DNA of 64,000 bases from Morchella semilibera. Its lineage: Eukaryota > Ascomycota > Pezizomycetes > Pezizales > Morchellaceae. Below the pieces are notes generated by a model. It was not told the origin of the DNA. It saw nothing but the letters and a program-made list of their open reading frames with translations, and ran no database searches. Positions 8,017 to 59,769 of this stretch are shown in pieces. The translations under genes and the position numbers were made by a program. The stretch lies in assembly GCA_009192285.1 (NCBI GenBank), contig CM018606.1, positions 1,664,081 through 1,728,080 of the forward strand, given 5' to 3'. Within the stretch, counting starts at the first letter, position 1, and each line of letters begins with the position of its first letter.

Positions 8017-11000
8017 GATTAGGCCCTCCTTCAGGCCTAACTCCTGGTAGGCTTAGGTTTGCGTGGATAACTATCATGGAAATCTCTAACCAAATCGGGG
8101 GCATGCTCCAAATCCTCGGGGGGTTGCCAGGATGGTTCGTCATAACCAAGATACCGATCCAAATACTCCAACTTCCCATAACGCCGACGAGAGTCTAAAA
8201 CTTGTTCCACTTCCCACTCCTGTTCGCCTTCGATTTCTATAGCTGGGGGCGGAGACTGTAGTTGACCCGGAACAGGATTGCATGGTGCGAGAGACAAAAG
8301 AGACACATGAAATACCGGATGAATCTTCATAGACGCCGGGAGATCGAGTTCATAAGCATAGGGACTACATCAGCAAGACTTCATTTGTCTCCTGATGTCT
8401 CCTGAGGCTCAGGAGACTCAAAAAATATCTGGCGGTCTCAGGAGACTCTCAGGAGATCCGGGAGACTGTTGGGAGACTCTAGTCACAAGTTGAGTTTGCT
8501 GATGTAACCATTCGCTTAATCACATAGGGACCGATGCGCTTCCAATCGAGTTTCTTCGAGGGTCGCTTGGTCTCAATATTCCGAGTCGAAAGAAAAACTT
8601 CATCTCCAATAGCATACCTGGGGGCGGGAATTCTATTCCGATTTGCTGCCTCCTCATAAATTTTCTGAGCCCGGGCCATCTCATCACGAAGGAACTCATA
8701 AACCTGTGCCATAGCCCTGGCCATACCATTCGCCTGGTCCTCATTGGTTGTCTTTCCATGCTGTAGCGGGGCGAAGGACATGCGGGGACTCCTCCCATAA
8801 TTGGCCTGAAACGGGGACATTTTGGTGGTCTCGGAGACATGATTGTTGGTTGCAAACTCCGCCATTGAAAGGTACTGGGTCCAATCGTCCTGTTGATACG
8901 AAACGTAGGCTCGGAGATATTGTTCCATAACGGCATTAATCCTCTCGGTCTGCCCGTCTGTCTGTGGATGAAATGCAGTACTATAGCGGGGGGCGATTTC
9001 AAGGCGGGAGCATAAAACTTTCCAGAATTCGGCCGTAAATTGTGTGCCACGGTCCGAGACAATAGTTTCTGGGAGTCCATGAAGTTTCCAAACCGAGTCG
9101 AGGTACATGGTGGCAACATCCTTGGCATTTGCTTCCTCGGTGCAGGGTATAAAGTGACGCATCTTCGTTAGGCGGTCAACCACCACCAGGATCGCATTGA
9201 AACCATTACTTTCCGGGAGTCCTGTGACAAAATCCATTGATACATCGGTCCATGGGCCTTTGGGTACAGCGAGAGGTCGAAGAACACCTTGGAGAGCATT
9301 ACGGGAAGCCTTGCTACGGGAGCACACGTTACAATTCAGGACGTATCGATCAACATACTTCCTCATATTTGGCCAGTAATAGTTCCGGCTGAGGAGTTCA
9401 AGAGTCTTGGCACGACCTGGGTGTCCAGCGGAGGGCTTATCATGGTGATCTTGCAAGAGGCGAAGCTGAAGGTCCTTAAATTCGGGAACATAAATAGCCT
9501 GGCGATACAGAAGGAATCCGTCCTCTGTTTCGGTGCATTCGGCAAGGGAGATCTTCTTGGAATATTTTGTGCCATTGCAAAGCATCGTCAGAACTTGATT
9601 TAGGAAACTATCTTCTTGGTAAGCTTGGATCAACAACTCCTTCACGGTGGACATTCTTTCAGCGGGTTCATTTGTCAAAGAACCCGCCAACAAACTTAGC
9701 TTAATCCTTGATTCCAAATTCTCCTGCTTCAAAACCACTTGCGACTGGTGAATCAACCGTTCGTCCCCTTCCTTTGGCAAATCCTTTGACCTCCGGGTAA
9801 GTGCATCCGGTTTCCCTCCTTGTTTCCCTGGCCTAAACTGGATAACAAAATTAAATCGGGACAGGAATTCTGCCCAACGGGTCTGACGCCGATTTAACAA
9901 CTTCGTGGACATAAAGTATTCCAGATTTCTGTGGTGGCTTAGCACCTTAATAGGGAAGCGGGACCCTTCAAGGTTCGCACGCCATTCCTCAAAACTTCTA
10001 ACAACTGCCAACAGCTCCTTATCATAGATCTCGTAATTACATTCCGCCGGGGAGTGCTTCTTGGAGAAAAATGCAACCGGATGAAGAAGTCCATCATCAC
10101 CGTACTGCGACATAATACCGGCGGAGACGTAATCTGAAGCATCAGTTTCCACGATAACTTCTTTTTCAAAGTCAAAGTGGGCGAGAATCGTGGCCGAGGT
10201 AAATGCCTCCTTAAGTTGCTGGAACGCCTCTTGTGCCTTCTGGGACCATTCAAACTTTACGTTTTTCTTGGTCAGGGCAGTAAGGGGTGAAACCACGCGG
10301 GAGTACGCATAAATAAATCGTCGATAAAAATTAGCAAAGCCTAGGAATTCTTGAACCTCCCGGAGTCTAGTGGGTGTCTCCCAATCTCTAACCGTCGAAA
10401 CCTTGCTGGGGTCCATCTGAATACCCTCCGGGGTCACGATCAATCCAAGATACTTGGTCTGCTGGACGTAGAACTCGCACTTCTCTGGCTTAAGGTGAAC
10501 ATCATGGAATTGGAACACCTTCAGAATTTTCCGAACATGTTGCTTATGTTCCTCGAGGGTCTCGGAGTAAATTAATACATCGTCGAGATAGGCCGTGGCA
10601 AAATTGTCCAAATAGGGACGCAGGAGGTCATTGATCCAATGTTGGAACGCAGCGGGGGCATTGGTCAGCCCAAAAGGCATCACGTTATACTCAAAGTGGC
10701 CATAGCGCGTCCTAAAAGCGGTCTTCCATTCGTCTCCTTCTTGGATCCGGATCTGATGATATCCCCAGCGAAGGTCCAACTTAGTATAGTACTTCGCCTT
10801 GGAGAGTCGGGAGAGAGTTTCTGGGATTAGCGGCAGAGGATGGCGATTTTTAACCGTGATCTCGTTAAGTTTCCTATAGTCCACGCAGAGTCGAAGAGAG
10901 CCATCAGATTTCTTCACGAACAAAACAGGAGCACCGGCGGGCGATTCGGAATAACGGATAAACCCTTTCGACAGGTTCTCCGTAATGTAATCCCTAAGGG

Positions 11001-11829
11001 CTTGCAGTTCCAAACGAGACATTCCATATAGCGGACCAAACGGCGGTGCCTTCCCATCCTGCAAGACTATTCTCAAGTCATGAGGGCGATGCGGGGGCAG
11101 AGCGGCGGCGTCGGATTCCTGAAACAGTGCTATAAATTCTCGGAGTTCCTGGGGGACGTGGGCGAGAGGATCCTGGGCGGTCTTTCCAGCAAGGGCTTCG
11201 TCAATCGCACGGATTGAGGCGCAGAAGAGTCTATTCTGTCGGCGTCGCGCAAGGCCTACGAAGGGTACCGCCCCAATTGCTGCAATCTGAATAGCTGGGG
11301 CATCGGGGAACGAAATCGAAATACCTTTTACGGTAATCGGGGCATGAGACCGAGAACAGCTCTGGATACAAAAATCAGAATCGAAGATGATCTTATTCGT
11401 CTTCGGTCTGATAGCTAGGTCATGGCGCCTCATCCAAGGGATACCCAGTACCAATGGGTGGTGTCCTAACTTTGTAACGAAAAACGGAGCCATTTCCTTG
11501 TGTCCATCGATATCCAGGGAGAGTTTAACCATATGCGTAATTTTTCCTGATTCCACCAGCCTGCCGTCGATTACCTCGAGCAAGCGTGATGTCTTCAGGG
11601 GAACCGGGACAAGACCATGCTGCAAAACAAACCCTTGATCCACAAAAGCATAGCCCGAGGCGCCTGTATCTATCAGGGCATGGGTAGCAATGGGGGCGGC
11701 GGCGTCTTGAGCAACAGAGCAGGAAACAACAAGAGACTCCTCAGACATCCTGTCTTCGGAAACGGCGGCGGCGGAGAGAACAAAAGTAAGTGGCGGGACT
11801 AGCCCCTTTGGTGTGCCAATTTCTACCAA
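8017..11829 (-). pseudogene. pol of copy C: protease, RT, RNase H, integrase, chromodomain
   Basis: The long frame (upstream of the inserted element at 8368-8504) encodes in order: aspartic protease (DTGASGYAF), reverse transcriptase with the YLDDVLIY catalytic box, RNase H ([11 protein letters not shown]), the integrase zinc-binding region ([17 protein letters not shown]), the integrase core ([22 protein letters not shown]) and the KLDWKRIGPY module. The chromodomain (EWEVEQVLDSR, EPSWQPPEDLEHAP) lies beyond the insertion, at 8030-8270. Family members make Gag and Pol from one RNA. Here pol opens in a different frame just at the gag stop, with a hairpin at the join. Broken once, by the insertion. 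Confidence 0.9.
8368..8504 (+). mobile_element. 137-bp palindromic MITE (CATCAGCAA family), in pol of copy C
   Basis: Ends CATCAGCAA / TTGCTGATG, flanked by TA at 8366-8367 and 8505-8506. Comparison with the uninterrupted pol of copy D shows one TA at the empty site, so the 2-bp duplication is real. The interior has repeated GTCTCCTGA / TCAGGAGAC motifs. No coding capacity. The plus sign marks the orientation that begins CATCAGCAAGACTTC. Confidence 0.9.
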
Positions 11830-12812
11830 AGGGGCTGACCTTTTAACGCCGGCTTGGGGGTCACTAGCTCAACTGGTGCTTTACGCCAGTTGTCGGAGGT
11901 ATTGAAATCCTGCGAGCGGGGGGCAAGGTAACGAGGCTTCGGGGTTTGGGCGGCGGGGCGAGGTAACTTCCTAGTAGCATTGGGGGCGACAAGAGTTAGA
12001 CGGCGGCGGAGGTCAGCAATAGTGGCGTCCGCGTCAGCGAGGGCTTCCTGGTGCAGGGCCAAGCGGTAGCGGAACTCCTCCTTCTCCGCGATAAGGGAGG
12101 CCACTTCTTCCTGAAGATCCTGGGCAGCCTCCACTGATTCTTCCTGGGCCTCGCACATACGGGACCAGAGGTCGGCAGCCTTCCCTTCGGCTGCCTCAAG
12201 TTCCACTTCGAGGTTCTCGATAACCTCATCGTGGGCCGTACATACGGCTGGTTCTTCGGGGGCGAGGGCGGGGACATCAGCGTGGGCGGTCAGGGCGGCA
12301 AGAGCTTCGGCGATGAGGGTATGAGCCTCGGTCAGCTCGTACCCGAAGTCTTCCTCGACGGGACCAAAGGTTTCCAAGAAGCTCGTGAGTCTCTCGGTCA
12401 GGGTACTGGGGGCGGAGGCAACGGGGATTTCCAGGGGACGGCCGATGGTGTGTTGAGCGAGGGCAGGATCTCTGAGGCCACGAATAATGGCTTCAGCATC
12501 GTGGGCGGGGTGGGCATCTTCATTGGAGGGGGCTCCGACATGGAGCTGACCGGGGACGGGTTGGGTAAAGGTGGCCTTAGCCCAGTGGGCATCGGCGCGC
12601 TTGAGACCATGGGCGAGGGCGTACTTGCGAAGCAGGTGGACGTGAGGGTCTGAACCCAAACGGCAGCCGAGGTCGAACCAGTGAGAGCGGGGGACAAGAG
12701 CGAGGTGACAGAATCCCTTTCGTTCAGGGAAGTAGCATTCGAGGGGACCGGGAGAGAGGAAGACGGGGTTGGGGCAGTCCCCCATGGGGACATCCCAGCT
12801 GAGGTCGGTCAT
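11823..12812 (-). CDS. gag-like ORF of copy C (about 329 aa)
   Basis: Starts MTDLSWDVPMGDCP and ends KGQPLW, as in copies A and D. Cys/His-bearing N-terminus, long heptad region (ENLEVELEAAEGKAADLWS), basic C-terminus with RKLPRPAAQ. No CCHC knuckle. The frame is open throughout. The gag stop sits at the start of the loop of an AGCCCCTTTGG / CCAAAGGGGCT hairpin (about 11807-11842), and pol continues in another frame. About 62 bp of leader separate the 5' LTR from the ATG. Confidence 0.8.
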   Translation of the reverse strand: MTDLSWDVPMGDCPNPVFLSPGPLECYFPERKGFCHLALVPRSHWFDLGCRLGSDPHVHLLRKYALAHGLKRADAHWAKATFTQPVPGQLHVGAPSNEDAHPAHDAEAIIRGLRDPALAQHTIGRPLEIPVASAPSTLTERLTSFLETFGPVEEDFGYELTEAHTLIAEALAALTAHADVPALAPEEPAVCTAHDEVIENLEVELEAAEGKAADLWSRMCEAQEESVEAAQDLQEEVASLIAEKEEFRYRLALHQEALADADATIADLRRRLTLVAPNATRKLPRPAAQTPKPRYLAPRSQDFNTSDNWRKAPVELVTPKPALKGQPLW

Positions 12813-20711: not shown

Positions 20712-22868
20712 CTAGGAGTCGATAGGGAGGATGTATGTTAGGGGTGGAGGAGGAAGGGGTGTCGGGCGTGATTTTGGTGTAGAAGAGGACGGGGGAGGGG
20801 CTATAGCTGTTAAGGGAATAGGTGCTGCAAAGCCGGGCTCTGGCGATTCGAATGTATCAATATCTCTATATACCGACGAAGCACCGGACTCTGGTAATTC
20901 GATAGGGTTATGCTCTGGTGAAGATGATGATAGGGATATAGTAGTAAGTTCCGACGACGGCGAAAGGGCCAGGTCAGGTGAAGTTATTGATTTAAGTCCT
21001 ATCTTAATTGGTGTTGAAGAAGGCCCTGCCCATTCGTGCAGTTCCGCTGACATGTAAGGATATGGATAGCCGTCTATCTTCTTTCTTTCCTTCGGTCGTC
21101 CGACTCACGTTGTAGCAGTCCCCCTCGTCCCCAGCGGCAGTGCCCTCCCCTTCCCCGTCCCACTCCTCCCGCCCGTGTTATTCCCCTTCCCCGGCGCCTT
21201 CCCCTTCCCCTTCCCCCTCCCCTTCCCCTTCCCTTTGCAGGTGCCTTTCCCTTTCCCTTGCTCTGGGGGTTCTTATCCCCCTCGTCATCCTCCGGGTCGT
21301 CATCCCCCGAATCGTCATCCTCCGGGTCTTTCTCCTTCGGGTGGTCGTCCTCCAGGTCGGCCTCCGGGTCGTCATCGTTCCGGTCGTCCTCCGGGTCGTC
21401 CTCGTCCTCCGGGTCGTCCTCGTCCTCCTCCTCCGGGATCTCATCCACGTCAGTTGCGGGGTCTGTCAGGGCTGGGCTGTTTCTGCCCGGACTCATGATC
21501 TTGGAGTTGAGTCGGTCGACAGTTAGTTGCTCCTTCATCATCTCGCTCCAACTTTCACGAAAGTAGGGAAATGATGGAGGTGGTGGGGTTTGCCTCCCCT
21601 GGTTGTCGGCTTCATGGTAAATTACCATTAGGCGTACTTTGGGCAACGCGGCGCAAGCCCGAAGCCACACCTCGACGTCCTTGTCGGTCTTTAGGAACAT
21701 ATAATTCTGCATGAGTGGATACCTCCTTACAGGTCTGGGTGGATTTTTGGGAGAACGAGCGAACTCCTCATCGAGGACGAAGGAGCCTATCAAGTGACGA
21801 ATCGGCGGGTATGAGCGCTGATACAGTATCTTATTCTGGCTTCTGAGATGGCGCCGCTCGGCTCTGATCATTCTGACGACTTCCGATATATACGGCCCGC
21901 GGAGCCTTGTGTGACTCAGGATGGGGGTGTCGTTATACGTTTTAGGGGTCCAGTTAGGCATCACCCACTGCGTGTTTCTAACAAAAGGAGCGACGGGAGT
22001 GGTCCGGAAAGCCCTTCCCGCAGCGACATCCGACGTTGACCTACGATACCGACTTGGAACGACTTGAGATATTCCAACAGGCCGGTCAAATAGGGCAGGG
22101 TCGAGGGTGGGTGGGGGCGGAGTTTTATCTGCCTCTTCATCGGTCTCCTCGGCATCGTCGTCCGCTCCATCTCTCCTACCCTTTTGTTTGCCGCCCTTGT
22201 GCTTGGTTTTTTTCCTTTGGCTGCTTCTCTTTTAATCGACGCGCCTTGTTCCTCTCCGCCTCAGCGAACTCTTCCTTTTCTGCCTTAGACTTTCGCTTGC
22301 AGAAGTCTTGAAGTATAGAGTTGAATGCCTTTCTGACGAGAGAGCCCTGATAGGTTGCTCGGTCGTCTGGCTGATTCAAGAGATGGGAATATGTGGGCCA
22401 TGGCGGATGCGCTTCAAGTCGTTGCTCTACTTTATCCCACTCGGCTTGCTCGGCCTGTGTCCTGCTTTTGATGACCTTGCGGAGTAAATAGTACGCATAT
22501 CGTTCATCATATGATGCCATTCAGCCGGAGTTATGCCCAGCATTGCTTTACAGTCGGAGGCAGTTAGCGCCTTCGCCCCCAGCATATCCTGACAAAACTT
22601 GTTAGCAACCCTTCGGCTTCCACAGTAGGAGCTCGGGGCAGGGTCCCTACAGCGTCCCGGCAATCTTCTAACGTCATGCGCAGTATCCAAGGTCTTCGAC
22701 CGGCTCGTTCTTGGCCCTTTGGCCACGTTTTTGTCGTGGTGGCGGCGGCGGCGTCGGCGTTGCAGAATCGCCGGGATTTCCACGAGTATTTGGACGTTTG
22801 CGTTGGGTCTTGGGATTGACCTCTGACTCAGGTAGGGGTCTTTTGTGACCTCTTCTGGGAATCGCCAT
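20712..22868 (-). pseudogene. companion gene (ORF2) of Plavaka copy 1, frameshifted
   Basis: Runs divergently from the transposase. It opens MAIPRRGHKRPLPESEV (basic, NLS-like). A middle part follows with SYDERYAYYLLRKVIKSR and an Arg/Lys/Glu-rich stretch, then YMFLKTDKDVEVWLRACAAL, a long Asp/Glu region, and an RGG-like Gly/Arg tail. An intron with GTGAGT donor and CAG acceptor (21047-21108, 62 nt) joins the tail to a Ser/Pro-rich last exon ending at 20712. At least two frame changes are visible, around 22500 to 22690 and at a seven-base homopolymer near 22210, so this copy is damaged. The YMFLKTD...VWLRA block recurs in copy 2 as YVPIGDDQELEGWLRA. Function unknown; basic ends suggest DNA or RNA binding. 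Confidence 0.6.
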
Positions 22869-23434: not shown

Positions 23435-26400
23435 ATGTTTTGCCCATACTGCCCCAGAACATACCGCCGCGTAGGGAATCTCACGAGGCACATTGCCTCC
23501 CTCCACGCAAACGAGGAGTCCGAGGACGAGAACGACCCGCATCAGGATCCAGAGGAAGGCGCAGGACCAGTGGAGATTGGGGCAATTGCCAATTCTGATG
23601 AGGAATGGACGGATTCTGAGGCCGACTCGGTACAGGAATCCGACTTCGATGCCTCCGACGATGAGGATGAAGTTGTTGGGGGGTTGGGCGATAACCAGCG
23701 ACCTCCCGAGTACCCACCCTGCGCGGGAGTACGGCTAGGGCAATCGGAGGGTTACCGGGACCATTTGAAGGACGACTGGGAACCTTGGGCCCCTTTCAAA
23801 GATGCCGCGGAATGGCGATTAGCCAGATTCTTCTTAGAGCACAAACTAACGTCGTCGTCAATTGACGACTACTTTAATGAGGGTCTACACAAGGCTAAGG
23901 CGGAGGAACGAACGTTCCAATCCGCCTACACCTTCCAAAAGAAGCTAGAGGAAATGGCCGGATCCCCACCAAGTTTCAAATACGGTACAGTCGGGGACGG
24001 GAATGGCAAAACGACCGAGTTCTATTACCGGGATCCCGTCGAGTGTGCCAGGTATCTACTAGCCCAACGATGCTATGCGGAGGAGATGGTGTATGTCCCA
24101 GTAAAGGTATACGACGAAAAAGGACTGCGGCTTTACTCGGAGATGCATACGGCGGATTGGTGGTGGGGGATGCAAGAAAGACTTGCACCTGGAGCTACCG
24201 TCGTTCCTATCATCTGTAGCTCTGATGTAACTCATCTGACCAACTTCTCGGGGGACAAGAAAAGCTGGCCCGTATATATGACGATAGGCAATATCCCAGG
24301 CAAGGTACGGTCGAAGGCCTCGAGCAAAGCGCATCTCCTCTTAGCCTTACTGCCAGTTCCGCCGAAGGTAATCGGAGATGCGGCGTCTAAGGAGAAAATG
24401 CGATTACGGGCGTCGGAAACATTGAGGATGGTTATGTCAGTTATCCTCGAGCCTCTAATCAACCTCAACCAGGACTCGGGGGTCATAATGGATTGCGCGG
24501 ACGGCTACCAAAGGCGGTGCTGGCCTGTGCTCGCGGCATGGTTGGCTGACCATATGGAGAACTGCAACATCTTGAGCACCAAATTCAACATGTGCCCCAA
24601 GTGCGAGGTTCCTGTTGATAGACTGGGAGAATACCGGACAGAGCCGACGGAGGCTTACCCCCGGAACCAGAATAACTATCGGCTGATGTACGATGATTAC
24701 ATCGCGCTGAAGTCGGTTGACCTGGCGACGAGGGATCAGAAGAGGCGGATAAAGGTGTTGAAACAGTGGTTCGACGCGCGTGGGATACGACCAACCTACA
24801 ATCCCTTCTGGGACCTACCCTACATTAACGCTTACGACCTTCACAGGCCGGATATGCTTCACGTCGTCTACCTGGAATTCTAAAACATTTGATGGAGTGG
24901 TTGGAGGACTTTCTGAACGAGCATAATCGTTTGGATGATTTCAATATGATCTGGACCCTCATGCCTCCATATCCCGGCTTTGTGCAACCGACGAAACCAT
25001 ATCAGGCGATTACTCAATGGCAAGGAAAGGAGATGCGAAACTTCCTGAAGATAGTCCTACCAGCTCTAGCATCAGCCCTCAGAAGGCCAAAGCCAAATCA
25101 GGTAGGGCCTTTAAGAGAGCCCTCAGATGCGTCAGATCCCTTGTCAACTGGGCGCTTGTAGCTCAGTACCGTTCCCATAACGATGCAACGATAGATATGT
25201 TGGAGGGATATCTTGAGGATTTTCACAGGACCAAGGGCGTATTCAGGAAATACCGAGCGAGCAGGAAACCGAGAAACTTGCGGCACAACGACGAAGGGAG
25301 CTCCTAGAGGAGTACGACATAGAATTAGCGAATCTCAACGGGTCATCCGTTGCTAGACAAAGACTTGTCAGTGATCAAAGGCTAAACATGCAGGCGGAAA
25401 TAGACGAAATTCTACGAACAGAATCGCACTTCAACTTTCCAAAGATTCATTTGATGAGCCACTTCACCGAACATATCCGGCAGTTTGGCAACATTCCCGA
25501 CTTTTCGACGGAATCTTGCGAGATGGCGCACAAGGACCAGATCAAAATACCATATCGTCGGAGCAATCGCGTGAATCCGACGATGCAGATATTGCGCACG
25601 TTCAATAGGGACTACACATTCGCCATGCGGGAGCTAAATCTGATACAGCTAGCTCGAGAGGGGTTTTCTACTGCAGAACTTATCGACAACCTTCGACTAG
25701 GGCCCCCAGCGTTGAGAAACAAACGACGAAAGGCCAGACAAAATTTGGAGGACCTCCGCGACGATCCAGATGTGGAGCTGGAGATGATAGCACCATTAAG
25801 CCTAAGATCGGAAGAGGCAGAGGTTGAAAGGAGGTCAGTTAGCAGCAGGGAGCAAACGACAACGGTGGGAAGGGTGGTTATACCGGGGGCAGAGGCAAGG
25901 CTCGGTTTCTATCTTGGTCGTTACTTCAGGAGGGAACTCAATGTCAGCGCTGAGTATATGCCAGGAAGAATTTGGGAGTGGCAGGTGGAGGTTTTCAGGC
26001 AACTCAACGTGCCAATACTGCTACATGGCGAAGGCGACGAAAGAGTAGTCCATGCACTTCGCACTACAGGTAGTTTAGACTACAGGGGGTCAGCGCCAAG
26101 AAAGGATTGGGTTTGGTTTCAACAGGGGCCACGAGGACTAAACGATCCACTACAGGGGCTTCGTCCAGCAACGCTCCTGAATGTGTTGAAGTTGAAAGAC
26201 CCGAGACGGAGGAGAGCTAGATTACTCGCGGTGATCCGACCTCTAAAACCGGACTTTCAGGGAGCCACAGATGAGAATCACGGCTTGGTGAGGGTATCAC
26301 CGAGAGCGGCATCATCCGACGATGTTTGGGTAGTTGGTATCAAGTGTATCGTTGGGGCCGCACATCTAGTGCCGGAAACACCGTCGGAGGGGACAAGGAG

Positions 26401-26452
26401 GTGGCTGGTCAATAGCACAATCGACCTGCGTACGTTCAACTTGATATACTAA
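23435..26452 (+). pseudogene. Plavaka-type transposase with N-terminal C2H2 finger, frameshifted
   Basis: The N-terminus is a C2H2 zinc finger (FCPYCPRTY ... LTRHIASLH), then an acidic linker (residues 25-85). The transposase body includes EMHTADWWWGMQE, SSDVTHLTNFSGDKKSWP, YMTIGNIPGKVR, MDCADGYQRRCWPVLAAW, NMCPKCEVP (a second Cys pair) and DMLHVVYL. After 24883 the homologous sequence continues in other frames: HLMEWLEDFL, then ALRCVRSLVNWALVAQYRSH, then HFNFPKIHLMSHFTEHIR and an extended C-terminus to 26452. I see about three frame changes (near 24873, 25085 and 25250-25390) and no plausible introns there. In the family this enzyme cuts and pastes the element in the nucleus. This copy should not make a full-length product. 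Confidence 0.8.
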
Positions 26453-28442: not shown

Positions 28443-29745
28443 TCAAAAGATGTGATTTTTGGAGAAAAGACGAGATTTGCACCTTGGGAGAGCCTGTTGC
28501 GTCTTGACGAAACATATTTTTTCCTGATGAACTTCACACCTAGGGCAGGCCTGATCGTTGAGGTTTAGCAGCGAGGCATGTTCTCGTTGAACCGCAATCC
28601 ATGCACATAGTATCGGATAACATAGGCGCACATAGCCATCAGCGCATGTTATAAGCTCACCCCTTTCCGCAAGGCCCTGAAGGCCTTCGAGAACCTCAGA
28701 GAGGACCTGGTGAAGGACCATCTGGCTCTCCCAATGGCGTCCGTTCGTACGCACTCCAATCTTTGATGGCACTGGCAGTAGAGCTAGGAGTATGATCGTG
28801 TAATTAGAGATTTTATTTCATGTGTCCGAGGTGATATTGACAATTGTTAGCTATACTGGCTAAGCCTTCTTGTCACCACTGAAATTAGTGAGGTGTATTC
28901 CGTCTGATACACATATTACTGGCACCACCGTTCATCCTTCTGGAAGGTTATTCTATAACATTTGTGAGAGGTTAGCAGAGGCTCCCTGAGCCTTCTAAGT
29001 AAGTGTTGCAAACCTGTATCTCCCACTACCAGTCTGCCGTGTGCATCTCCCCATACATCCGCTCCCCCATTTTATTGTATTCTATAGTAGGTGAATACAC
29101 CAAAGACTCTCTAAATGCATGTTGTCCCAGAAGAAAACGCACTATATTCATAGGGTCCCTGTAAGAGTAAAGAATTTCTGCCCGCCCATTTCGATCTCTA
29201 AGTGTATCCAGCTCTTTTTTCCTAACCTCCCCCATAGACGACATCTCATCGAGGAGGCGTGTAAAGCCTCTACCAGTGCTGTAGAAGCCTTGTAGAGGGC
29301 ACACGGTGCGGAAGAAATTGTTCATCTGACCCCCAGACACATTCGACTACTACAGTGTAGGAAGCAGCGCGACAACCGAAATTCCTTTGCTGATTCGAAA
29401 GGCTGCCATAGGTTGATCAAAAGGCTTTCCGAGCCTTCATCATATCCCGTTGCGGTGAAAAGAGGCTTCCCTGCACCCTCGTATATGGTAGTTGCTAGAT
29501 TGAACCGCGTGGATCCCAAAGTATGTTCATCATTTGATTCAGTATCGGACTCGCTTTCATCTGGTATGTTCAAATGTCCACCCTCATGGGAACCGCCTGA
29601 GCCTTCAGGAAGGCTCTGCGAGCCCTCAACGGAAGTCCCTGAAAACTGCCTCTCGTACCATTCGTGGGTCCACTATGGGTGGACTTTTGAGAGATGTCGA
29701 TTGAAACTACCAGCATTGACGTAACTCCGAATGCAAAATACATCG
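28443..29745 (-). pseudogene. Plavaka-type transposase remnant of copy 2
   Basis: In gene order: a decayed zinc finger (YVNAGSFNRHLSKVH), an acidic linker (DESESDTESNDEH), the pre-catalytic region (FRLSRCFL; YSYRDPMNIVRFLLGQHAF), EMHTADW, VVPVICVSDGIHLTNFSGD, and the block ITCADGYVRLCYPILCAW ... ACPRCEVH. Each has a counterpart in copy 1. Stops and frame changes occur between blocks, and nothing homologous remains beyond the second Cys pair. Confidence 0.7.
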
Positions 29746-30741
29746 TAATCTCATTGCTGATAGTCAATTTTAGTGGAGGCTTCGGAGACTCTGGAGGATT
29801 TGGAGACTTTGGAGCCCATGAGGATTTCCTAATCTTCCTAGACTTAAAAGGTTTTGGGGAGGTTGGCACTCTAAATGGGCCCGTGCACCGATAGATCATA
29901 TCTTATCGCACTAACATTCTGATCACAATATTTGAGTGACATCATATGATTCAATATGACGTTCAATTGTTACTCCAATATATGACGTAGTGAAGTTTGA
30001 TCGAAGATATCTCGCGTTCCCCTATTCTCCTACTTCTATACCTATCCATCCCTAGGATCGATACACTGGCTCAAGCTTACTACAATATCTCCAAGTCCCT
30101 GGAAGCCTTCAAGAGTTTATAATACACGATATAAGATGGTATCCTATCCTCTCTATTGCTCTATATTCAAGCAATTGACATATAAACAGGAAGCTTTTTT
30201 TTCCTCTTGGTATAAGTTGGCATCCAAACCGCACACCTCATCAAACGCCCCCGACGACACCCTGGCAAGCCCTAAACAAGGCCAAAAACAAAGCTGCATA
30301 TCCTCCCATAGTGATAAAAACGCATCCAAAAAACAGGAGGTCGGACCATTAATCTCCAGGCAGTACATTGATAGTGAAAGCTCGGACTTCAGCCTTAGTT
30401 CAGCCTCTAGTAGTAGTGTTGCATCCTACATAGAGATTGAGTCAGAGAAAGAGATACCCCGGAGCACCCAGAAGGGAAAGTCGAGAATGTCTGAGGAGCC
30501 TCTGAAAAGCCTCATTCTACACCCTCCAGGATATGGGCCTTCAGGATCCAGGGCTCCTAAGGGCTTCTCAATGGCCCCTGGCGCCTATAACAGAGCCATA
30601 CCAACGGTTATGAGAATAGTTCTCACTGGGCCTGTTATAGGCTCAGAGTTATTGATAGAATCCAGCAGTTACAGTGATAGGAAAAGTACCTGCAGTGAGG
30701 ACCGCAACCTGCTACAAGTGTACCTACCTTCTGACCGCTAG

Positions 30742-31021
30742 GGTGGAAATCTATTCATGAAAGGGTAGGCTGACGAGTCTAGGCCTTGTCAGTGAATAGA
30801 GGACTGGCTAGAGAGAGGTCTCTAAGTGCCGGGCATTTCCAGCATCCCTCTGTACATGAATAGCCCTCCTGCAAGCGGTAGTGGCTATGCCCGGGAATAA
30901 TCTACAATAAGTTACAGCTCCGTAGCCATCTTGGGTAGATCATCTGAGCGGAGACTCATTTAATACAGGCTCGGGGCTGTGTGACAGCCAGACTGCAGAT
31001 GATCCTTGACCCTGGTTAAGG
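30742..31021. other. non-coding stretch with inverted repeats inside the companion gene
   Basis: Contains CTATTCA ... TGAATAG near 30751-30801 and GATCATCTG ... CAGATGATC between about 30938 and 31003. It could be an intron, a decayed small insertion or structured RNA; I cannot decide. Confidence 0.3.
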
Positions 31022-31519
31022 GTGCTTACTCTAGGACCGGAAACACCCCTAGCGTTTAAGGAGAAGCGGGGTAGCGGAGGAATTGTTTCCGCCCCGAAAG
31101 AGAGTTTTCACCAGAACTTAGTGAGAGCGGTGGAATACAGGAAAAAGAGAGATTTGGAGTATAAGTACTCATCTCCGTTTTCGCCCACTTGTTCTCGTTT
31201 TTCTCATCATCAGTTGTAACAAGCGGAAGAAGACCCTTAAGATTATTCTAAGTCTACCAGAAGAATCTTTACTCTCTAAACCTAACTTCTATCTTCTACT
31301 GGCCCTCTTGTCTCCTACACTCTTGTTAGTAGAGGCAGAGCCCCGTTACAGCGCCCCCCCAATAACACCTACCCCTCAGACTCGATGTTCCCTACCCAAG
31401 TCAGACCCACAAATCAGGAAGCGGGTCCAAAGGACTAAGGAAGACCCTGAAGTGGCACCACGATACAAATTACCCGTCAAGTACATTTGCCAGACCACAT
31501 ACAACTGCCGGAGAATCTT

Positions 31520-31656
31520 CATCAGCAAGACTTCATTTGTCTCCTGATGTCTCCTGAGCCTCAGGAGACTCAAAAAATCTCCAGGAGTCTCAGGAGACTC
31601 TCAGGAGACCCGAGAGACTGTTGGAAGACTGCAGTGATAAGTTTAGTTTGCTGATG
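31520..31656 (+). mobile_element. 137-bp palindromic MITE, in Plavaka companion gene
   Basis: Ends CATCAGCAA / TTGCTGATG, flanked by TT (31518-31519, 31657-31658). A few substitutions relative to the other copies. Confidence 0.9.
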
Positions 31657-32785
31657 TTTACTTAGATAAAGATGATATCTATAAAGCTCTATGCAAAGAG
31701 CTCGCCGATGAAATGACAAAGACAGCGTGTGTGAATAAATCCAGCTGGGGCGATTCTTCATTCAATCATTTGTGCGAATATGCCATGGATCACAAGGCCC
31801 TAATGAATTTGAAGCTCAAGTGGTTAGAAAAGACTTCAGAGGACTCTATAAAGATCCAAGCAGCCCTAGCCCATCTCATTGTAGATCTATCACAGAAGAG
31901 AAAAAGGATAGACAAACGATATGACGAAGCTTTGGAAAGTGTGGTGGATAACGAGAGATATTACAAAATGGTATTCAAGTCCTGGGAGAATTTAGGAATA
32001 CCTCCCAGGCCCGCAATAACCGTACATATTATTGACCCAGACAAGGCTACTGCCATCCCAAGCGATACGCACCGTCCATACGACTGGTATGGGATTGCGT
32101 CGCTTATGTCATTTACCGGCATTCTCGAAGTGATGTCTATGTATAATTTAGCCAACGAGTCCCACTGGCCGCTCCAAGGGGCTCTAAGAGGGCTGTTCAA
32201 GCCTTCTACAGGGCGATGTCCAATTCGGTACCCCGGGGGCAGGCAGCTTATCCCCCAGATCTGGAATATGTGCCAATCGGAGATGATCAAGAGCTGGAAG
32301 GTTGGCTCAGGGCCACAGAGGCAAAACCCTTAAGGCTGTGTGCGGTGCTTCATAGGCCTTCGGCAATTGTAACTGGGCCTACCCAAAGGCCCCAAATGCC
32401 TTCACTAGAAGGATGAGATTGCCTGACTGAGGACGATATTAATGATATAGAGCTTTTGGATTAGGAACTTGAAGGTCTGAACATACCCTATCCATGAACT
32501 TATCGGGGTGGGCATTATAGAATGCTCTTCCTGAATGGCATTTATATGAATCTTATTATTCTGACTGAGAGAAACCACCTGTAAGTGCAGAGGATAAAAC
32601 CAGCGATGACGGTGATAGGCTCCCAAACCTCTGTAGGCAGTTTAGAAGGCTTGAGGAACCTTCATTTGGGAATTGGAGCTTTTTGTTTTTGCACATGCAG
32701 TTCTTAATTTTAGCCCGGTTACCTCTTTGGTTCTTAGCAATAATTATATGATTTATCTTTTGTCTTGGCAAGCCATCCAGGCTCC

Positions 32786-32987
32786 GGAGACTACCGACGA
32801 TTAAGCGAAACCCCCTCAGCTCTCCCGTGATCCCTGCCAATCTCCTGTGCTCTCCTGAGGGCTCGTCAAGCCCTCCTGATATCTCTGGAGACTAGTGATG
32901 ATTAAGCGAAACCTCCCAAGCTCTCCCGTGATCGCTACCAATCTCCTGTACTCTCCTGAGGGCTCGCCAAGCCCTCCTGATATCTCC
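32786..32987. repeat. 101-bp tandem duplication, two units
   Basis: Units 32786-32886 and 32887-32987 begin GGAGACTA / GGAGACTA and share GATTAAGCGAAACC and CTCTCCTGAGGGCTCG, with about ten differences. The GGAGACT and CTCCTGAG words resemble those of the 137-bp MITE. Confidence 0.8.
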
Positions 32988-33957
32988 GGAGACTTGTTGT
33001 TTAACTAAACACCTCAGGTGTTTACTAAATAATATATATGGGCGTTTAGTTAAACACTTAGAGTGTTTAACTTGGGGTGTTTAAACTAAATACTCGAAAT
33101 ATGTACTACCGGGCTTCTCGTCGCCTTTATTCGTTTTCCTTTGCACCCACCTAACCACCACCCCGGACTCCTCCTCTAGCGGGCTGGCTAGCATGTAACA
33201 ACAGTCAAAACTTACATGTAATGAATGTACTGACCATGTAGGTTAACCAACAAGCCACGAAAAACTAACATAACTCAATGTCTCATTCCCCCAAACATCA
33301 TGAACCTATTTTTGAGATTCTCAGAAGACACTGTACCCTAAGAATATTATCACGGGCTATCCTCATCCTGTTCATCCCCAAGACCTTCAAATATATACAT
33401 AGCATACAAAGTTCTATCTTGACCACTAATATGAGCCAATGAGGTTACCAATGGGGAGTGTAAAGAATCTTTGAGCAAGCGAATAATATACCAATATTCG
33501 GCGCCCCAGAAGCTAATCCTCTATAAGAGAAATTATGAAAATACTAAACCAGAGTGTAAGAACGAGAATACAAGCAATAAAAAAGCAAAAATGTACACCG
33601 AATCATAGGTATGGAGTTGAAAAAATAAAACAATCATAAGAGATCATAATAGACAAGGAAAAGGCTAACCCAACCCAAAGGCATAAAACCTATGAAGTGT
33701 ATAAAATGCCTAAGCCAAAAAAAGTACCTCAAAATAGAAGGAAGTAAAAGATACCGGGTAAAGCTCCAATATAGTGTGAAAGGCAGCGAGAATAATAAAG
33801 GGCCCAGGTATTACTACAGCCTTTTTGTCGAGATACCATGCAGACCACGCAGAAAATCAACAGCTCCACAGTTCCACTCCACTCTTCTTTACCAAACGAT
33901 GATTATATATCCCGATCTACCACATACGAGAATCCAGAAGACAAATCAGGAATGGGA
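32988..33957. other. AT-rich region downstream of the Ras-GEF gene
   Basis: Contains short inverted repeats of the type TAAACACCTCAGGTGTTTA (about 33006-33024) and GTTTAGTTAAACAC, possibly terminators or a small decayed MITE. The plus-strand frame at 33692-34198 overlaps the last Ras-GEF exon antisense and is not a gene. Probably the 3' UTR and intergenic sequence. Confidence 0.5.
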
Positions 33958-42263: not shown

Positions 42264-43389
42264 ATGACCGACCTTAGTTGGGATGTCCCTATGGGGGACT
42301 GCCCCAACCCTGTCTTCTTCTCCCCCGGCCCCCTCGACTGCTACTTTCCCGAAAGGAAAGGGTTTTGCCACCTTGCTCTCGTCCCCCGCTCCCACTGGTT
42401 CGACCTTGGCTGTCGCCTTGGTTCGGACCCCCACGTCTATCTCCTCCGCCAGTACGCTCGCTCTCACGGTCTCAAGCGCGCCGATGCCCATTGGGCTAAA
42501 GCAACTTTTACCCTCTCGGCCCCGGGCAAGCTCCATGTTGGAGCCCCTGCCACCAATGACTCCTACCCCGCCCATGATTCCGAAGCCATTATTCGTGGCC
42601 TTAGGGACCCCGCCCTTGCCAACCACACTATTGGCCGCCCCATGGAAATCGCTGCCCCTGTTCCAAGTACGCTGCCCGAGAGACTCGCCCGTTTCTTGGA
42701 AACTTTCGGCCCCGTGGAAGAGGACTTCGGGTATGAACTCACTGAGGCCCACCACCTCATTGCCGAAGCCCTTGCCGCCCTGACCGCCCCCACTGATGCT
42801 TCTATTCCCGTCCCCGAAGAACCGGCCGTATGCACGGCCCACGACGAGGTCATTGAAAACCTCGAACTCGAACTCGACGCAGCCGAAGAAAAAGCTGCTG
42901 ACCTCTGGTCCCGCATGTGCGAGGCCCAGGAAGGAACAGTGGAGAGTATCATCAGCAAACTCAACTTGTGACTGGAGTCTCCCAACAGTCTCCCAGGTCT
43001 CCTGAGAGTCTCCTGAGACTCCTGGATATTTTTTGAGTCTCCTGAGGCTCAGGAGACATCAGGAGACAAATGAAGTCTTGCTGATGATCGAGAATCTCCA
43101 GGAAGAAGTGGCCTCCCTCGTAGCCGAGAAGGAGGAGTTCCGTTATCGTTTGGCCCTGCACCAGGAAGCCCTTGCTGACGCGGATGCCACTATTGCCGAC
43201 CTTCGCCGCCGCCTCCCTCTTGCCGCCCCCAATACTACCAGGAAACCAACCCACCCCGTCGCCCAGGCCCCGAAACCTCGCTACCTCGCCCCTCGCTCCC
43301 AGGACTCCCGTACCTCTGACAACTGGCGTAAAGCACCAGTTGAGTCGGTGACTCCCAAGCCGGCGTTAAAAGGTCAGCCCCTTTGGTAA
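42264..43389 (+). pseudogene. gag-like ORF of copy D, interrupted by a MITE
   Basis: Starts MTDLSWDVPMGDCP, as in copies A and C, and shows the same Cys/His N-terminus, heptad region (ENLELELDAAEEKAADLW) and basic tail ending KGQPLW. A 137-bp palindromic element at 42950-43086 interrupts the heptad region. The gag stop lies in the AGCCCCTTTGG / CCAAAGGGGCT hairpin (43375-43410), where pol takes over in another frame. Confidence 0.8.
42950..43086 (-). mobile_element. 137-bp palindromic MITE, in gag of copy D
   Basis: Ends CATCAGCAA / TTGCTGATG, flanked by AT (42948-42949 and 43087-43088). The uninterrupted gag sequences of A and C show the empty site. It is one of the most canonical copies and sits in the youngest retrotransposon, so the family moved recently. 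Confidence 0.92.
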
Positions 43390-49335: not shown

Positions 49336-50107
49336 CATCAGCGAACTCAACATGTGACTGGAGTCTCCCAACAGTCCTTCAGGGCTTTGTCCCGGCGTCT
49401 TGGCATCAGTCCCGGGGATTTGGTAGTCGAAGCGCTGATGTAACTAATGAGGAAGAGTTAAGCGAGGAAGAGGTGTGTTGAGAGGGGGGTGTCGTCATGG
49501 GGTTCTAGGAGGTTCAATGGCATGATGGATTTGTAATGGAAATAAAGGAGATGGTGGCGAGGAATACGAAGTGTGTTAGTAATAGGTTCTATGAGGTTTT
49601 ATGAGTAAAAGTATGAGTCATAGCGGACTGGTGGAGGAGATGTGTTAAATAGCGGGGATAGAAATTTTCCTTAGTTCTTTCTTTCTTTTCTCTCTGTCTC
49701 GTCTTCCTGTTATTTCGGTACATAGGAATCTACTCCTATTTCCAAGGCATAGCCTCTCGTACCAAAGACTCTGTCCTCTACAAAAGAGGAAACCCATAGT
49801 ACCTCTCATCGTTCTCGTTGAGGTTCATTCAGTCCTCACTCTCCTGCCCTGTGCCCTTGTACCTTTGCCCTTGCCTTTGCCTTTGCCGGTGCCTATGCTT
49901 GGGCCTGCCCAATATTGCCTTTGTCTTCGTCGGTCTTCTCATCGCTGAGGCTGTGCTCCTCCGGTCCTTCTGCCTCATCATTGTCATCTTCTTCTTTGCG
50001 TCGGGTTATTCTGTCACAGTCTTCTGAGAGTCCCCTGAGATTCCTGGATATTTTTTGAGTCTCCTGAGGCTCAGGAAACATCAGGAGACAAATGAAGTCT
50101 TGCTGAT
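49336..50107 (-). mobile_element. MITE split by a family 2 LTR
   Basis: Left piece 49336-49387, right piece 50019-50107. Together, less a 5-bp duplication, they make about 136 bp, the normal MITE length. The duplication is GGCTT / GTCTT (one mismatch) around the LTR at 49388-50018. Confidence 0.8.
49388..50018 (+). repeat. full-length family 2 solo LTR (631 bp), inserted in a MITE
   Basis: TGTCCCGGCG ... CTGTCACA, TGAGTCA 49614-49620. Flanked by the two halves of a 137-bp-family MITE. Confidence 0.85.
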
Positions 50108-50385
50108 ACACGCGACGAGGTAGCTGACGAAGACAAGAACAACATCAGCAAGTATTACCATTTGTGACTGTATGTGACGGAGTAACCCGACGCAAAGTAG
50201 AAGATGACAATAATGACGCAGAAAGATTCGAAGAGCACAGCCAAAGCGACAAGGAGGCCAATGAAGACAAGGACAATGCTGGGCAGGTACAAGCACTGGC
50301 ACTGGCAAAGGCAAAGGCAACGGCAAAGGCATAAGGCCACAGGGCAGAGAGAGTGAGGGCCGGATGGACCTCAACGAGAATATTA
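50108..50385 (-). repeat. family 2 LTR fragments with a MITE scrap
   Basis: 50108-50142 continues the LTR hit by the MITE at 49336. 50143-50170 is a scrap of the short MITE subfamily (CATCAGCAAGTATTACC). 50173-50385 begins TGTGACGGAG and is truncated. Confidence 0.65.
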
Positions 50386-51088
50386 CAGGGCGGGATTGAG
50401 GGAATAGGACGAGGGGTCATCAGCAAACTCAACTTGTGATTGGAGGCCCCCAACAGTCTCTCAGGTCTCCTGAGAGTCTCCTGAGACTCCCAGATATTTT
50501 TTGAGTCTCCTGAGACTCAGGAGACGTCAAGAGACAAATGCAGTCTTGCTGATGGTTCTAGAGCAGGAGCAGGGTCGGGCAGAGGATCCACAGGAAGTCT
50601 TTGATTTCAACATAGACGCGGAGGCACCAGTAGATGGCTTGGATCATGGTCATAGGCAGGAGCGGGGTGCGACAGAAGGCCAAAGGGTTAACCGAGGCAA
50701 GCGTGTTCAGAACATGTTGTTAACAAGGAACACAACCGAGGACAGAAGACAAGAGTAAAGAGTATAACCAAGTATATTTTTCTAAACGAGTTCAAGAAGA
50801 GAAACCAGAAAGAACCAGGAACAGAAACTCAAAGAGAAGGGTTGATAACAGGAGGTTGCGTAAGGAAAGAAGAAAGAAATGACAAAGGAAATCCCAGCCT
50901 ATATATATATCGTTTTCCTACTATTAATTACTAATCCATACCACAGAACCCCATAGAAACCCAAAAAAATACTATCGCTTCCCACAACCGATCTTCCATA
51001 CTAACTCCCAATCAATCTAACCCGAAGAATCCCGATACAATTACCAATCACTCCTCTCATTCCCTAATACCTAGAATATGCCGTGACA
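50386..51088 (-). repeat. LTR of a third Ty3/gypsy family (approximate left end), with MITE
   Basis: Ends CCGTGACA at 51088, directly next to the polypurine stretch and chromodomain end of the element at 51089. TATATATATA near 50900. Only distantly similar to family 1. A MITE lies at 50418-50554. No TGAGTCA seen. Confidence 0.6.
50418..50554 (-). mobile_element. 137-bp palindromic MITE
   Basis: Flanked by GT (50416-50417 and 50555-50556). Confidence 0.9.
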
Positions 51089-51621: not shown

Positions 51622-52393
51622 TAAGACGGAGTAATTCGACGCAAAGAAAAAGATGACAATGATGACGCAGAAGGACCTAAGGAGCACAGCGTAAGCGACG
51701 AGGAGACCGACGAAGACAAGGGCAACACCGTACAGGCACAAGCACAGGCATCGGCAAAGGCAAAGGCAAGGGCAAAGGCACAAGAGCACAGAGCAGGGAG
51801 AATGAGGACCGGATGGACCTCAACAAGAACAATGAGAGGTACTATGGATTTCCTCTTTCTAGAGGACAGAGTCTTTAGTACGAGAGACTATGGCTTGGAA
51901 ATAGGAGTAGATTCCTCTGTACTGAAATAACAGGAAGATGAGACAGAGAGGAAAGAAAGAAAGAACTAAGAAAAATATCTACACCTGCTATTTAACATCT
52001 CTCCTCCACCAGTCCGCTATGACTCACACATTCGCTCACAGAAACCCATAGAAATTCATCGTAACTACACCTTGTATTCCTCCCCACCATATCGCTAATT
52101 CCTATTACCAATCCATCACGCCATCGAACCCTATAGAATCTAATGACGACATCCCCCACCTTGTCTCGCCCCATCCTCGCTTAATCTAACTTCATCTATC
52201 GCAACCATCAGCAAGACTTCATTTGTCTCCTGATGTCTCCTGAGTCTCATGAGACTCAAAAAATATCCGGGAGTCTCAGGAGACTCTCAGGAGACCTGGG
52301 AGACTGTTGGGAGACTCCAGTCACAAGTTGAGTTTGCTGATGACAGCGCTACGACTACCAAACTATCGGGACCGATGCCAAGATGCCGGGACA
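51622..52393 (-). repeat. family 2 solo LTR, target duplication GGTGC, carrying a MITE
   Basis: About 632 bp without the MITE. GGTGC at 51617-51621 and 52394-52398. TGACTCA at 52020-52026. Confidence 0.88.
52206..52342 (+). mobile_element. 137-bp palindromic MITE, in a solo LTR
   Basis: Flanked by AC (52204-52205 and 52343-52344). Other LTR copies show the empty site. Confidence 0.92.
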
Positions 52394-52827: not shown

Positions 52828-52963
52828 CATCAGCAAACTCAACTTGTGACTGGAGTCTCCCAACAGTCTCCCAAGTCTCATGAGAGTCTCCTGAGACTCC
52901 AGGATATTTTTAAGTCTCCTGAGGCTCAGGAGACATCAGGAGACAAATGAAGTCTTGCTGATG
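52828..52963 (-). mobile_element. 137-bp-family MITE at a chimeric junction
   Basis: Ends intact, but flanks are TA and AC, not a duplication, and the two sides come from different elements (integrase versus LTR). Confidence 0.88.
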
Positions 52964-53510: not shown

Positions 53511-54281
53511 TGTCCCGGCGTCTTGGCATCGGTCCCGAAGATTTGGTAGTCAAAGCGTTGTTGCGATTGTTTAGAAATAGTTAAGCGAGGGAGGGGTTTG
53601 CTAAGGCGGGTTGTCGTCATGGGTTTCCATGAGGTTCGATGGCGTGATAGATTTGTAATGTAAATAGCGAAGATGGTGTGGAGGAATGGGAGGTGTGGTA
53701 GCGATGGGTTTCCATGGGATTCGGTGAGCAACAGGGTGAGTCATAGCGGATTAGTGGGGGGGGTGTGTTAAATAGCGGGGATAGATGTTTTCCTTAGTTC
53801 TTTCTTCATCAGCAAGCTCAACTTCTGACTGGAGTCTCCCAACAGTCTCCCGGGTCTCCTGAGAGTCTCCTGAGACTCCTGGCTATTTTCTGAGTCCCAT
53901 GAGGCTCAGGAGACATCAGGAGACAAATGAAGTCTTGTTGATGTTTCTTTTCTCTCTGTCTCGTCTTCCTGTTATCTCAGTACATAGGAATCTACTCATA
54001 TTTCTAAGCTATAGCCTCTCGTACCAAAGACTCTGTCCTCCGAGAAAGAGGAAACTCATAGTATTCATCATCGTTCTCGTTGAGGTCCATTCGGTCCTCA
54101 CTCTCCCTGCTCTGTGCTCTTGTGCCACTGGCCTTGCCTTTGCCTTCGCCAGTGCCTGTGCCTGTACCTGCCCGGTGTTGCCCCTGTCTTCGTCGGTCTC
54201 CTCGTCGTGTAGACTATGCTGCTCGAGTCCTTCTGCGTCATCATTGTCATCTTCTTCTTTGCATCGGGTTACTCCGTCACA
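53511..54281 (+). repeat. family 2 solo LTR, target duplication CCATA, carrying a MITE
   Basis: 631 bp without the MITE. CCATA at 53506-53510 and 54282-54286. TGAGTCA at 53737-53743. Confidence 0.92.
53807..53943 (-). mobile_element. 137-bp palindromic MITE, in a solo LTR
   Basis: Flanked by TT on both sides. Confidence 0.9.
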
Positions 54282-55667: not shown

Positions 55668-55813
55668 CATCAGCAAGACTTCATTTAACTCCTGGTGTCT
55701 CCTGGGTCTCAGGAGACTCAAAAAATATGATCCAGCCTGAGGGGTATCAGGAGACTCTCAGGAGACCCAGGAGACTGTTGGCAGACCCCAGTCACAAGTT
55801 GAGTTTGCTGAGG
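55668..55813 (+). mobile_element. palindromic MITE, 146-bp variant
   Basis: Flanked by TA. About 9 bp longer in the centre than the standard 137-bp form. Faces the next copy at 55869. Confidence 0.88.
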
Positions 55814-55868: not shown

Positions 55869-56005
55869 CATCAGCAAACTCAACTTGTGACTGGAATCTC
55901 CCAACAGTCTCCCAGGTCTCCTGAGAGTCTCTTGAGACCCCTGGATATTTTCTGAGTCTCCTGAGGCTCAGGAGACATCAGGAGACAAATGAAGTCTTGC
56001 TGATG
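55869..56005 (-). mobile_element. 137-bp palindromic MITE
   Basis: Flanked by TT. Lies 55 bp from an inverted copy at 55668-55813. Confidence 0.9.
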
Positions 56006-56056: not shown

Positions 56057-56692
56057 TGTGACGGAGTAGCCCGACGCAAAGAAGAAGATGACAATGATGA
56101 CGCAGAAGAACCCGAGGAGCACAATCTAGGGACGAGGAGACTGACGAAGACAAAGGCAACACCGGGCAGGCACAAGCACAGGCACCGGCAAAGGCAAAGG
56201 CAAGGGCAAAGGCACAAGGACACAGAGCAGGGAAAGCGAGGACCAGATGGACCTCAACAAGAACGATGAGAGATGCTATGAGTTTCCCCTGGTCAGAGAA
56301 TCAAGTATTGGGTACGAGAGGCTATGGCTTGGAAATAGGAGTAGATTCCTATGTACTGAGATAACAGGAAGACGAGACAGAGAGAAAAGAAAGAAAGAAA
56401 GAACTAAGGAAAACATCTATCCCCGCTATTTAACACACCTCCTCCACTAGTCCGTTATGACTCACACTTTCACTAATAGAACCTCATAGAAATCCATTGC
56501 TACCACACTTCGTAATCCTCCCCACCATCTCCGCTATTCTACATCACCAATCCATCACGCCATCGAACCTCCCAGAACCCAATGACGACAACCTTCGCCT
56601 CGCGCTCCCCACCCTCGCTTAACATTACCCTAACAACCACAACCATATATCACCTACCGAACTGTCGGGACAAATGCCAACACGCCGGGACA
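56057..56692 (-). repeat. full-length family 2 solo LTR, target duplication TTTGT
   Basis: 636 bp, TGTGACGG ... CGCCGGGACA. TTTGT at 56052-56056 and 56693-56697. TGACTCA 56458-56464. Confidence 0.92.
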
Positions 56693-57545: not shown

Positions 57546-57587
57546 CATCACTAAACTCAACTTGTGACTGGAGTCTCTCAACAGTCC
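57546..57587 (-). mobile_element. MITE fragment, one end only
   Basis: Begins CATCACTAAACTCAACTTG and stops after about 42 bp of standard MITE sequence. Confidence 0.7.
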
Positions 57588-57620: not shown

Positions 57621-57729
57621 CATCAGCAAAATTTCATAAGTCTCAAGAGATTATTCGGGCCTCAAGAGATTCAGGAGACTGTCAGGAGACTCCGGAGACT
57701 CCAGTCACAAATGGTAAAGCTTGCTGATA
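57621..57729 (+). mobile_element. 109-bp MITE subfamily member
   Basis: Starts CATCAGCAAAATTTC, ends AAGCTTGCTGATA. AA on both sides. Same subfamily as 58805-58913. Confidence 0.75.
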
Positions 57730-58617: not shown

Positions 58618-58754
58618 CATCAGCAAGATTTCATTTGTCTCCTAATGTCTCCTGAGGCTCAGGAGACTCAGAAAATATCCAGGGGTCTCAGGAGACTCTC
58701 AGGAGACCTGGGAGACTGTTGGGAGACTACAGTCACAAGTTGAGTTTGCTGATG
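58618..58754 (+). mobile_element. 137-bp palindromic MITE
   Basis: Flanked by TT on both sides, inside the old LTR. Confidence 0.9.
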
Positions 58755-58804: not shown

Positions 58805-58913
58805 CATCAGCAAGCTTTACTATTTGTGACTGGAGTTTCCTGAGTTTCCTGACAGTCTCCTAAGTCTCCTGATACCCAAAAAATCTCAGGAGACAAGTGA
58901 AATCCTGCTGATG
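58805..58913 (-). mobile_element. 109-bp MITE subfamily member
   Basis: Same ends as the 137-bp form, shorter and different interior, flanked by TC on both sides. Confidence 0.85.
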
Positions 58914-59490: not shown

Positions 59491-59626
59491 CATCAGCAAG
59501 ACTTCATTTGTCTCCTGATGTCTCCTGAGCCTCAGGAGACTCAAAAAATATCGAGGAGTCTCAAGAGACTCTCAGGAGACCTGAGAGACTACTGGGAGAC
59601 TCCAGTCGCAAGTTGAGTTTGCTAAT
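59491..59626 (+). mobile_element. 137-bp-family MITE
   Basis: Flanked by AA on both sides; 136 bp. Confidence 0.9.
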
Positions 59627-59672
59627 GAACTAAGAAAAATATCTACACTCGCTATTTAACACTTCTCCTCTA

Positions 59673-59769
59673 TATCAGCAAGCTCAACTTGTGACTGGAG
59701 TATCCCAACAGTCTCCCGGGTCTCCTGAGGCTCAGGAGACATCAGGAGACAAATGAGGTCTTGCTGATG
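59673..59769 (-). mobile_element. MITE with 40-bp internal deletion
   Basis: 97 bp, flanked by TA on both sides. The missing part lies between two TCTCCTGAG repeats of the standard form. Confidence 0.85.

Follow-up and report, generated by a model that had tools for sequence, protein, structure and literature searches.

A 137-bp Palindromic MITE Family with a 2-bp Target-Site Duplication in Morchella semilibera, Very Probably a Non-Autonomous Family of the PlavakaB Group

A short palindromic element with CATCAGCAA ends is present in a 64,000-nucleotide stretch of the Morchella semilibera genome (C4:1664081-1728080, C denoting a contig; hereafter, the window), where 14 paired copies and 3 pieces of it were identified. 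The 137-bp family among them, a miniature inverted-repeat transposable element (MITE) that we call MITE family 1, is very probably a non-autonomous family of the PlavakaB group, which is part of the CACTA/EnSpm-related DNA transposons. Its termini and its 2-bp target-site duplication (TSD) agree with the PlavakaB signature given in section 3.2.2 of PMC12730594, namely, a 2- or 3-bp TSD and the termini CATCA..TGATG. Paralogous empty sites were found at the same 2-bp step, long Plavaka elements of the genome have the termini in common with the MITE, and one MITE end is similar to Plavaka 3' ends. A sequence-only reading of the window had not recognised the family, a statement that the fit to the PlavakaB signature largely supersedes.

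The genome comprises 56,756,124 bases in 23 contigs. A search of it with the element ends, as the sequence-only reading had proposed, returned 612 copies with both ends exact (CATCAGCAA..TTGCTGATG, 100-130 bases between them), compared with 0 in the reversed sequence used as a control. These copies carry the termini described for PlavakaB. In the window, CATCAGCAA occurred 23 times against 0.51 expected on both strands, and the word GTCTCCTGA occurred 54 times against 0.83 expected. The majority consensus from 52 copies was 137 bp long. Folded as single-stranded DNA, the one copy examined (31520-31656) reached -32.1 kcal/mol, whereas its shuffled versions averaged -17.4 (z -5.3). The element is thus 137 bp long, non-coding, bounded by terminal inverted repeats, flanked by a TSD, and present in 612 copies, and the palindromic 137-bp MITE proposed from the window was confirmed.

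To obtain a TSD rate, 52 intact-ended copies were compared. Forty-three came from 40 regions of C1, hand-picked from places among the genome matches listed, 1 came from locus L039, and 8 came from the window. The sample therefore covers C1 and the window, and a filter against identical 15-base flanks was applied. A 2-bp TSD was present in 48 of the 52 copies, in 1 of which the identity reaches 3 bp, and absent from L046, L074, L078, and the window copy at 52828. Over 1,000 trials with randomly reassigned flanks, the matches averaged 6.1 and never exceeded 14, and other offsets gave 3-7. All 13 two-base duplications that had been listed from the window were found at their positions.

Empty sites were sought by joining the two flanks of a copy and looking for ungapped paralogues across the junction in the DNA under analysis. 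For this search, six imperfect window copies were added to the 52, giving 58. The added copies had been chosen for showing a TSD, so the rate to quote remains 48/52. With 2 bp removed, a paralogous empty site was found for 34 of the 58 copies, all of which have the 2-bp TSD. Removing 0, 1, 3, 4, 5, or 6 bp instead gave 7, 10, 10, 4, 2, and 3 empty sites, respectively. This comparison had also been proposed from the window alone, and it bore out the 2-bp duplication. One Plavaka locus, L037, was examined as an empty site for the copy at 31520; its junction was off by about one base, and the 34 do not include that copy.

The family also shows signs of recent movement. Divergence from the consensus had a median of 3.6% across the 52 copies, the window copy at 42950 matches the consensus at every base, and 117 copies lie within 1 mismatch of it over its first 73 bases. 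The earlier description of the family as recently active is supported in part by these values. Insertion polymorphism was sought at one site on contigs C9 and C10, which resemble each other, and the insertion was present on both, so that this side of the description gained no support. Three contig pairs (C9/C10, C12/C13, and C21/C22) carry the same elements at near-equal coordinates; the single stretch compared, from C9/C10, is 89% identical. Possibly, these pairs represent two haplotypes within one assembly.

Plavaka elements are abundant in the same genome. The Plavaka transposase domain PF18759 gave 128 genome matches and none across 14 control genomes. Groups A, B, B', C, and D were defined by DNA comparison and by element ends. 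Read outward from the transposase genes, the elements end in CATCAGCAAG on the 3' side in group B (L036 and L039), group B' (L103), group D (L038, L091, L095, and L099), and group C (L037 and five further copies with different flanks). A terminus of this type was present in 10 of 16 further loci read downstream (L090, L091, L093, L095, and L099-L104) and absent from the other 6 stretches (L092, L094, L096, L097, L098, and L105, the last of which contains an N run). The group C 5' end was located in L082, and at up to 2 mismatches the genome holds 38 matches to this 5' end and 44 to the 3' end. The 16 downstream stretches were hand-picked, as were 12 long family-C pairs, which cover part of the family-C 5'/3' pairs listed. 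One complete family-C element, C2:1736376-1748077, is 11,702 bp long, contains no N, and has TA on both flanks; when these flanks are joined, 74 of 80 bases agree with window positions 56304-56383. Group C probably moved recently, since two of its copies share 99.8-99.9% identity with L037 across 3.2-3.6 kb. The sequence-only reading had seen no obvious autonomous partner, a statement that is likewise largely superseded. Long Plavaka elements with CATCAGCAAG ends do exist in the genome, and two Plavaka pieces lie in the window itself, but no long element with the extended ends of the MITE was found.

The link between the MITE and these elements was examined at the level of their ends. On the + strand, the MITE has its A end, CATCAGCAARCTC, at the left, and the opposite end is the B end. 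Over nt 11-30, the B end shares 13 of 20 positions with the 3' end of group B (shuffle p = 0.0002), 12 of 20 with that of group C (0.0004), and 11 of 20 with that of group B' (0.015); these p values are uncorrected for the 24 comparisons made, and the shuffles ignore common composition bias. At nt 21-25, TCTCC is present in MITE family 1 and in groups B, B', and C, group D has TCCCC, and a second MITE family described below has TCTCA. The combination CATCAGCAAG-N10-TCTCC gave 734 genome matches and 0 in the control. Among the matches listed, all of them on C1, each was a MITE, C, or B end by sequence.

Several results weigh against the PlavakaB assignment. The B end is only weakly similar to group D (9 of 20, 0.07), and the A end has no significant similarity to the 5' ends of groups C and D, the two that are known; the group B 5' end was not reached in the stretches examined. 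A long element with the extended ends of the MITE was sought and not found. Of 12 long family-C elements, 7 have a 2-bp TSD and 5 have none, and of 5 gapped family-C copies, 4 have one and 1 has none (the 1,097-bp copy, flanked by CA/AA).

A variant of the same explanation deserves the most weight among the alternatives. It holds that the MITE derives by internal deletion from one particular PlavakaB parent that is extinct or was not sampled, that it depended on this parent alone, and that none of the long families identified in the genome mobilises it. We regard this variant as a serious contender, at somewhat below an even chance. Past nt 10, the MITE ends are unlike groups B, C, and D except near the TCTCC box. 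The word GTCTCCTGA was present in only 5 of 30 Plavaka loci, although these loci extend 1.5 kb past the domain and mostly stop short of the ends. Group B' and the MITE B end both read TCTCCTGATG at nt 21-30, which also favors a particular parent. On the other hand, unpaired MITE B ends failed as a marker of such a parent. The 14 that were tested, taken from the first 2.9 Mb of C1, all proved to be MITEs that had been damaged, truncated, or shortened, and none was a parent.

Nesting also speaks against dependence on a lost parent. The copy at 31520 is embedded in a family-C remnant, the similarity of which to L037 is interrupted between 31519 and 31660. Conversely, the C element C1:1925528-1936188 sits within a MITE with the TSD TC. 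With MITE and family-C elements nested in each other in both orders, their active periods overlapped. Among 32 flanks compared, the C elements at C1:2163245 and C8:545007 each have one end that adjoins MITE sequence, and a MITE within another MITE was seen in 1 of 52 copies (L059). Three family-C insertions are thus flanked by MITE sequence, which is more than the genome share of the MITE would suggest; a preference and crowding in repeat-rich regions both fit this observation. It is conceivable, and in our view rather unlikely, that the 3' end recognised by PlavakaB transposases is bipartite (CATCAGCAAG, exactly 10 bp, TCTCC), that this minimal signal allows several diverged Plavaka lineages to cross-mobilise two MITE families having little other sequence in common with them, and that MITEs and Plavaka elements preferentially land in one another.

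Membership in another CMCT group with a 2-bp TSD, such as PlavakaA, ESTA, or Mirage, appears very improbable. Mirage has a 2-bp TSD. In the part of PMC12730594 that describes these groups, PlavakaA and ESTA are likewise given 2-bp TSDs, with the termini TGT..ACA for PlavakaA and duplication of TA for ESTA. Here, by contrast, the ends are CATCA..TGATG and the targets are mixed; the MITE does not have TGT..ACA termini and ends in CATCAGCAA.

It is slightly less probable still that the copies are passengers of long terminal repeat (LTR) retrotransposons or of segmental duplication, with no transposition of their own. Several copies do lie within LTR-like repeats, and those of L068 and L069 occupy the same position in paralogous repeats (GACAGG|GGGACAACG). 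However, the 54 sampled copies with a TSD have 54 different flank pairs, 34 copies have empty paralogues with a 2-bp step, and L068 and L069 are oppositely oriented at their common site. This reading was rejected on the flanks and the empty sites. The L068/L069 site was either hit twice independently or underwent an inversion.

A Tc1/mariner-type MITE with a TA target has a negligible chance, since TA is the most frequent duplication (12 of 54) but 42 of 54 duplications are non-TA and many non-TA copies have empty sites, and its rejection on target sequence agrees with the sequence-only reading. The same reading had called the target sequence-independent, which is correct insofar as 14 of 16 dinucleotides occur among the 54 duplications. 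The choice is nevertheless biased. The 12 TA duplications compare with a window background of 5.4% (binomial p = 2e-5), and A/T-only pairs make up 32 of 54 duplications against a background of 26% (3e-7). The symmetrised preference is T then A.

Returning to the PlavakaB assignment, the common ends and the equal step length suggest that a Plavaka transposase moves the MITE in trans. Under this model, the transposase would be supplied by long elements elsewhere in the genome and would recognise the CATCAGCAA(R) ends, with recognition probably including the subterminal TCTCC and GTCTCCTGA words. It would excise the MITE and reinsert it after a 2-bp staggered cut that favors A/T and TA. In CACTA elements, subterminal words act as binding sites. 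By this analogy and from their position, the GTCTCCTGA words are putative binding sites. The MITE itself may be an internally deleted PlavakaB element, the long form of which has been lost or was not sampled.

Within the window, full copies of MITE family 1 are found on both strands. Those on the - strand lie at 8368-8504 (TSD TA), 31520-31656 (TT, within the family-C remnant), 52206-52342 (AC), and 58618-58754 (TT), and those on the + strand lie at 42950-43086 (AT, the copy equal to the 52-copy consensus), 50418-50554 (GT), and 55869-56005 (TT). Four further copies have one mismatch in one end. The mismatch is in the right end at 53807-53943 (+, TT), 55668-55813 (-, TA, 146 bp), and 59491-59627 (-, AA) and in the left end of the 97-bp copy at 59673-59769 (+, TA). 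Empty-site paralogues exist for the copies at 8368, 42950, 52206, 53807, 58618, 59491, and 59673. The copy at 52828-52963 (+) was absent from the earlier list; it has both ends exact and no TSD (flanks TA/AC), and it is probably a recombinant, judging from flanks that resemble two different repeats. Two + strand pieces complete the family in the window. The piece at 50019-50108 lacks the A side and contains GTCTCCTGA words, its left edge being judged by eye, and the A-end piece at 57546-57586 has both edges judged by eye.

The sequence-only reading had treated all copies as one family, which did not hold. The copies at 57621-57729 (-, 109 bp, degenerate, TSD AA) and 58805-58913 (+, 109 bp, TSD TC) belong to a second MITE family with the ends CATCAGCAAGCTTTACCATTTGTGACTGG / CATCAGCAAGATTTTACAAGTCTC, the A end of which matched at 82 genome places with up to 3 mismatches. 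The copies of this family in L080 and L081 have the TSDs CA and AA, respectively. A truncated piece at 50143-50170 (+) consists of an A end alone followed by LTR-like sequence, with the right edge judged by eye, and is probably also MITE family 2. Triple direct GTCTCCTGA words were tried as a marker of a long parent and gave 8 matches; both places fetched were MITE family 2, and the marker was rejected.

The two Plavaka pieces of the window belong to different groups. A group A element was identified by profile match at 23435-26452 (+). It consists of an open reading frame (ORF) at 23435-24883 with a PF18759 match (8e-74) and a weak N-terminal C2H2 finger match, followed by an ORF at 25388-26452 with no Pfam match. 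Sequences on C1 and C17 match this stretch at 99.4-99.6% identity. The ends of the element were sought and not found, an apparent edge at 21192 being an N run in the other copy. The family-C remnant at 28512-33004 (-), with transposase pieces at 28512-28964 and 29005-29193, is the one that carries the MITE at 31520. A 101-bp tandem array is present near the family-C 5' side, at L037:918-1447 and at window 32782-32994. Its units in L037 contain a terminus-like word, CATCAGTAGTCTCCGGAG, and the array could be one of candidate transposase-binding sites. Another stretch recurs in or beside family-C Plavaka (window 31668-31918 and L037:137-436) and overlaps an ORF at 31713-32333 with no Pfam match, a possible accessory gene of the family-C element.

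Short family-C forms, with 152, 294, 305, 326, and 1,097 bp between their ends, were considered as births of MITEs and rejected, as a single N stands at every junction. These forms (L132-L135 and L142) are probably collapsed assembly gaps that automatic annotation would misread as short elements, and they were used for their flanks only. The C3 copy holds an N run.

Herein, our findings describe a well-measured MITE family for a little-studied group of fungal transposons, for which the 2-bp step is proven and the target bias has been quantified. At 137 bp, the MITE is a compact substrate on which the end sequences required by a Plavaka transposase could be tested. Repeats of this kind can be annotated as Plavaka rather than left as unknown. 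Worth following up are the possible bipartite 3' end and the nesting of MITEs and family-C elements in each other. No description of this MITE was found in the literature searched, supplements, Repbase, and Dfam lying outside that search. The kind of element is already known, and the family itself is probably unnamed and new.

Among known systems, the MITE is most like PlavakaB (Kojima 2025, PMC12730594), as described there, in its CATCA..TGATG termini, its 2-bp TSD, and the presence in the genome of PF18759 genes with CATCAGCAAG termini. It differs in being 137 bp long and non-coding, in having its own GTCTCCTGA words, and in extended ends unlike those of any long element seen. For the MITE, we measured a target bias toward A/T and TA, and no such bias is given in the part of PMC12730594 drawn on here. 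In Marasmius oreades, as described in PMC8290104, non-autonomous elements are likewise classified by their terminal motif and the length of the TSD, alongside autonomous Plavaka elements. As far as is known, that is a different genome, and the comparison was made with a description that comes without terminal inverted repeat motifs, so the same family is possible. Within the present genome, the family-C Plavaka C2:1736376-1748077 resembles the MITE in its first 9-10 end bases, in the TCTCC of its 3' end (nt 21-25), and in its 2-bp TSD, and it differs in its length of 11.7 kb, its transposase gene, its 101-bp tandem arrays, and its subterminal words, such as TCTCCGGAG and CTCCAGAGG.

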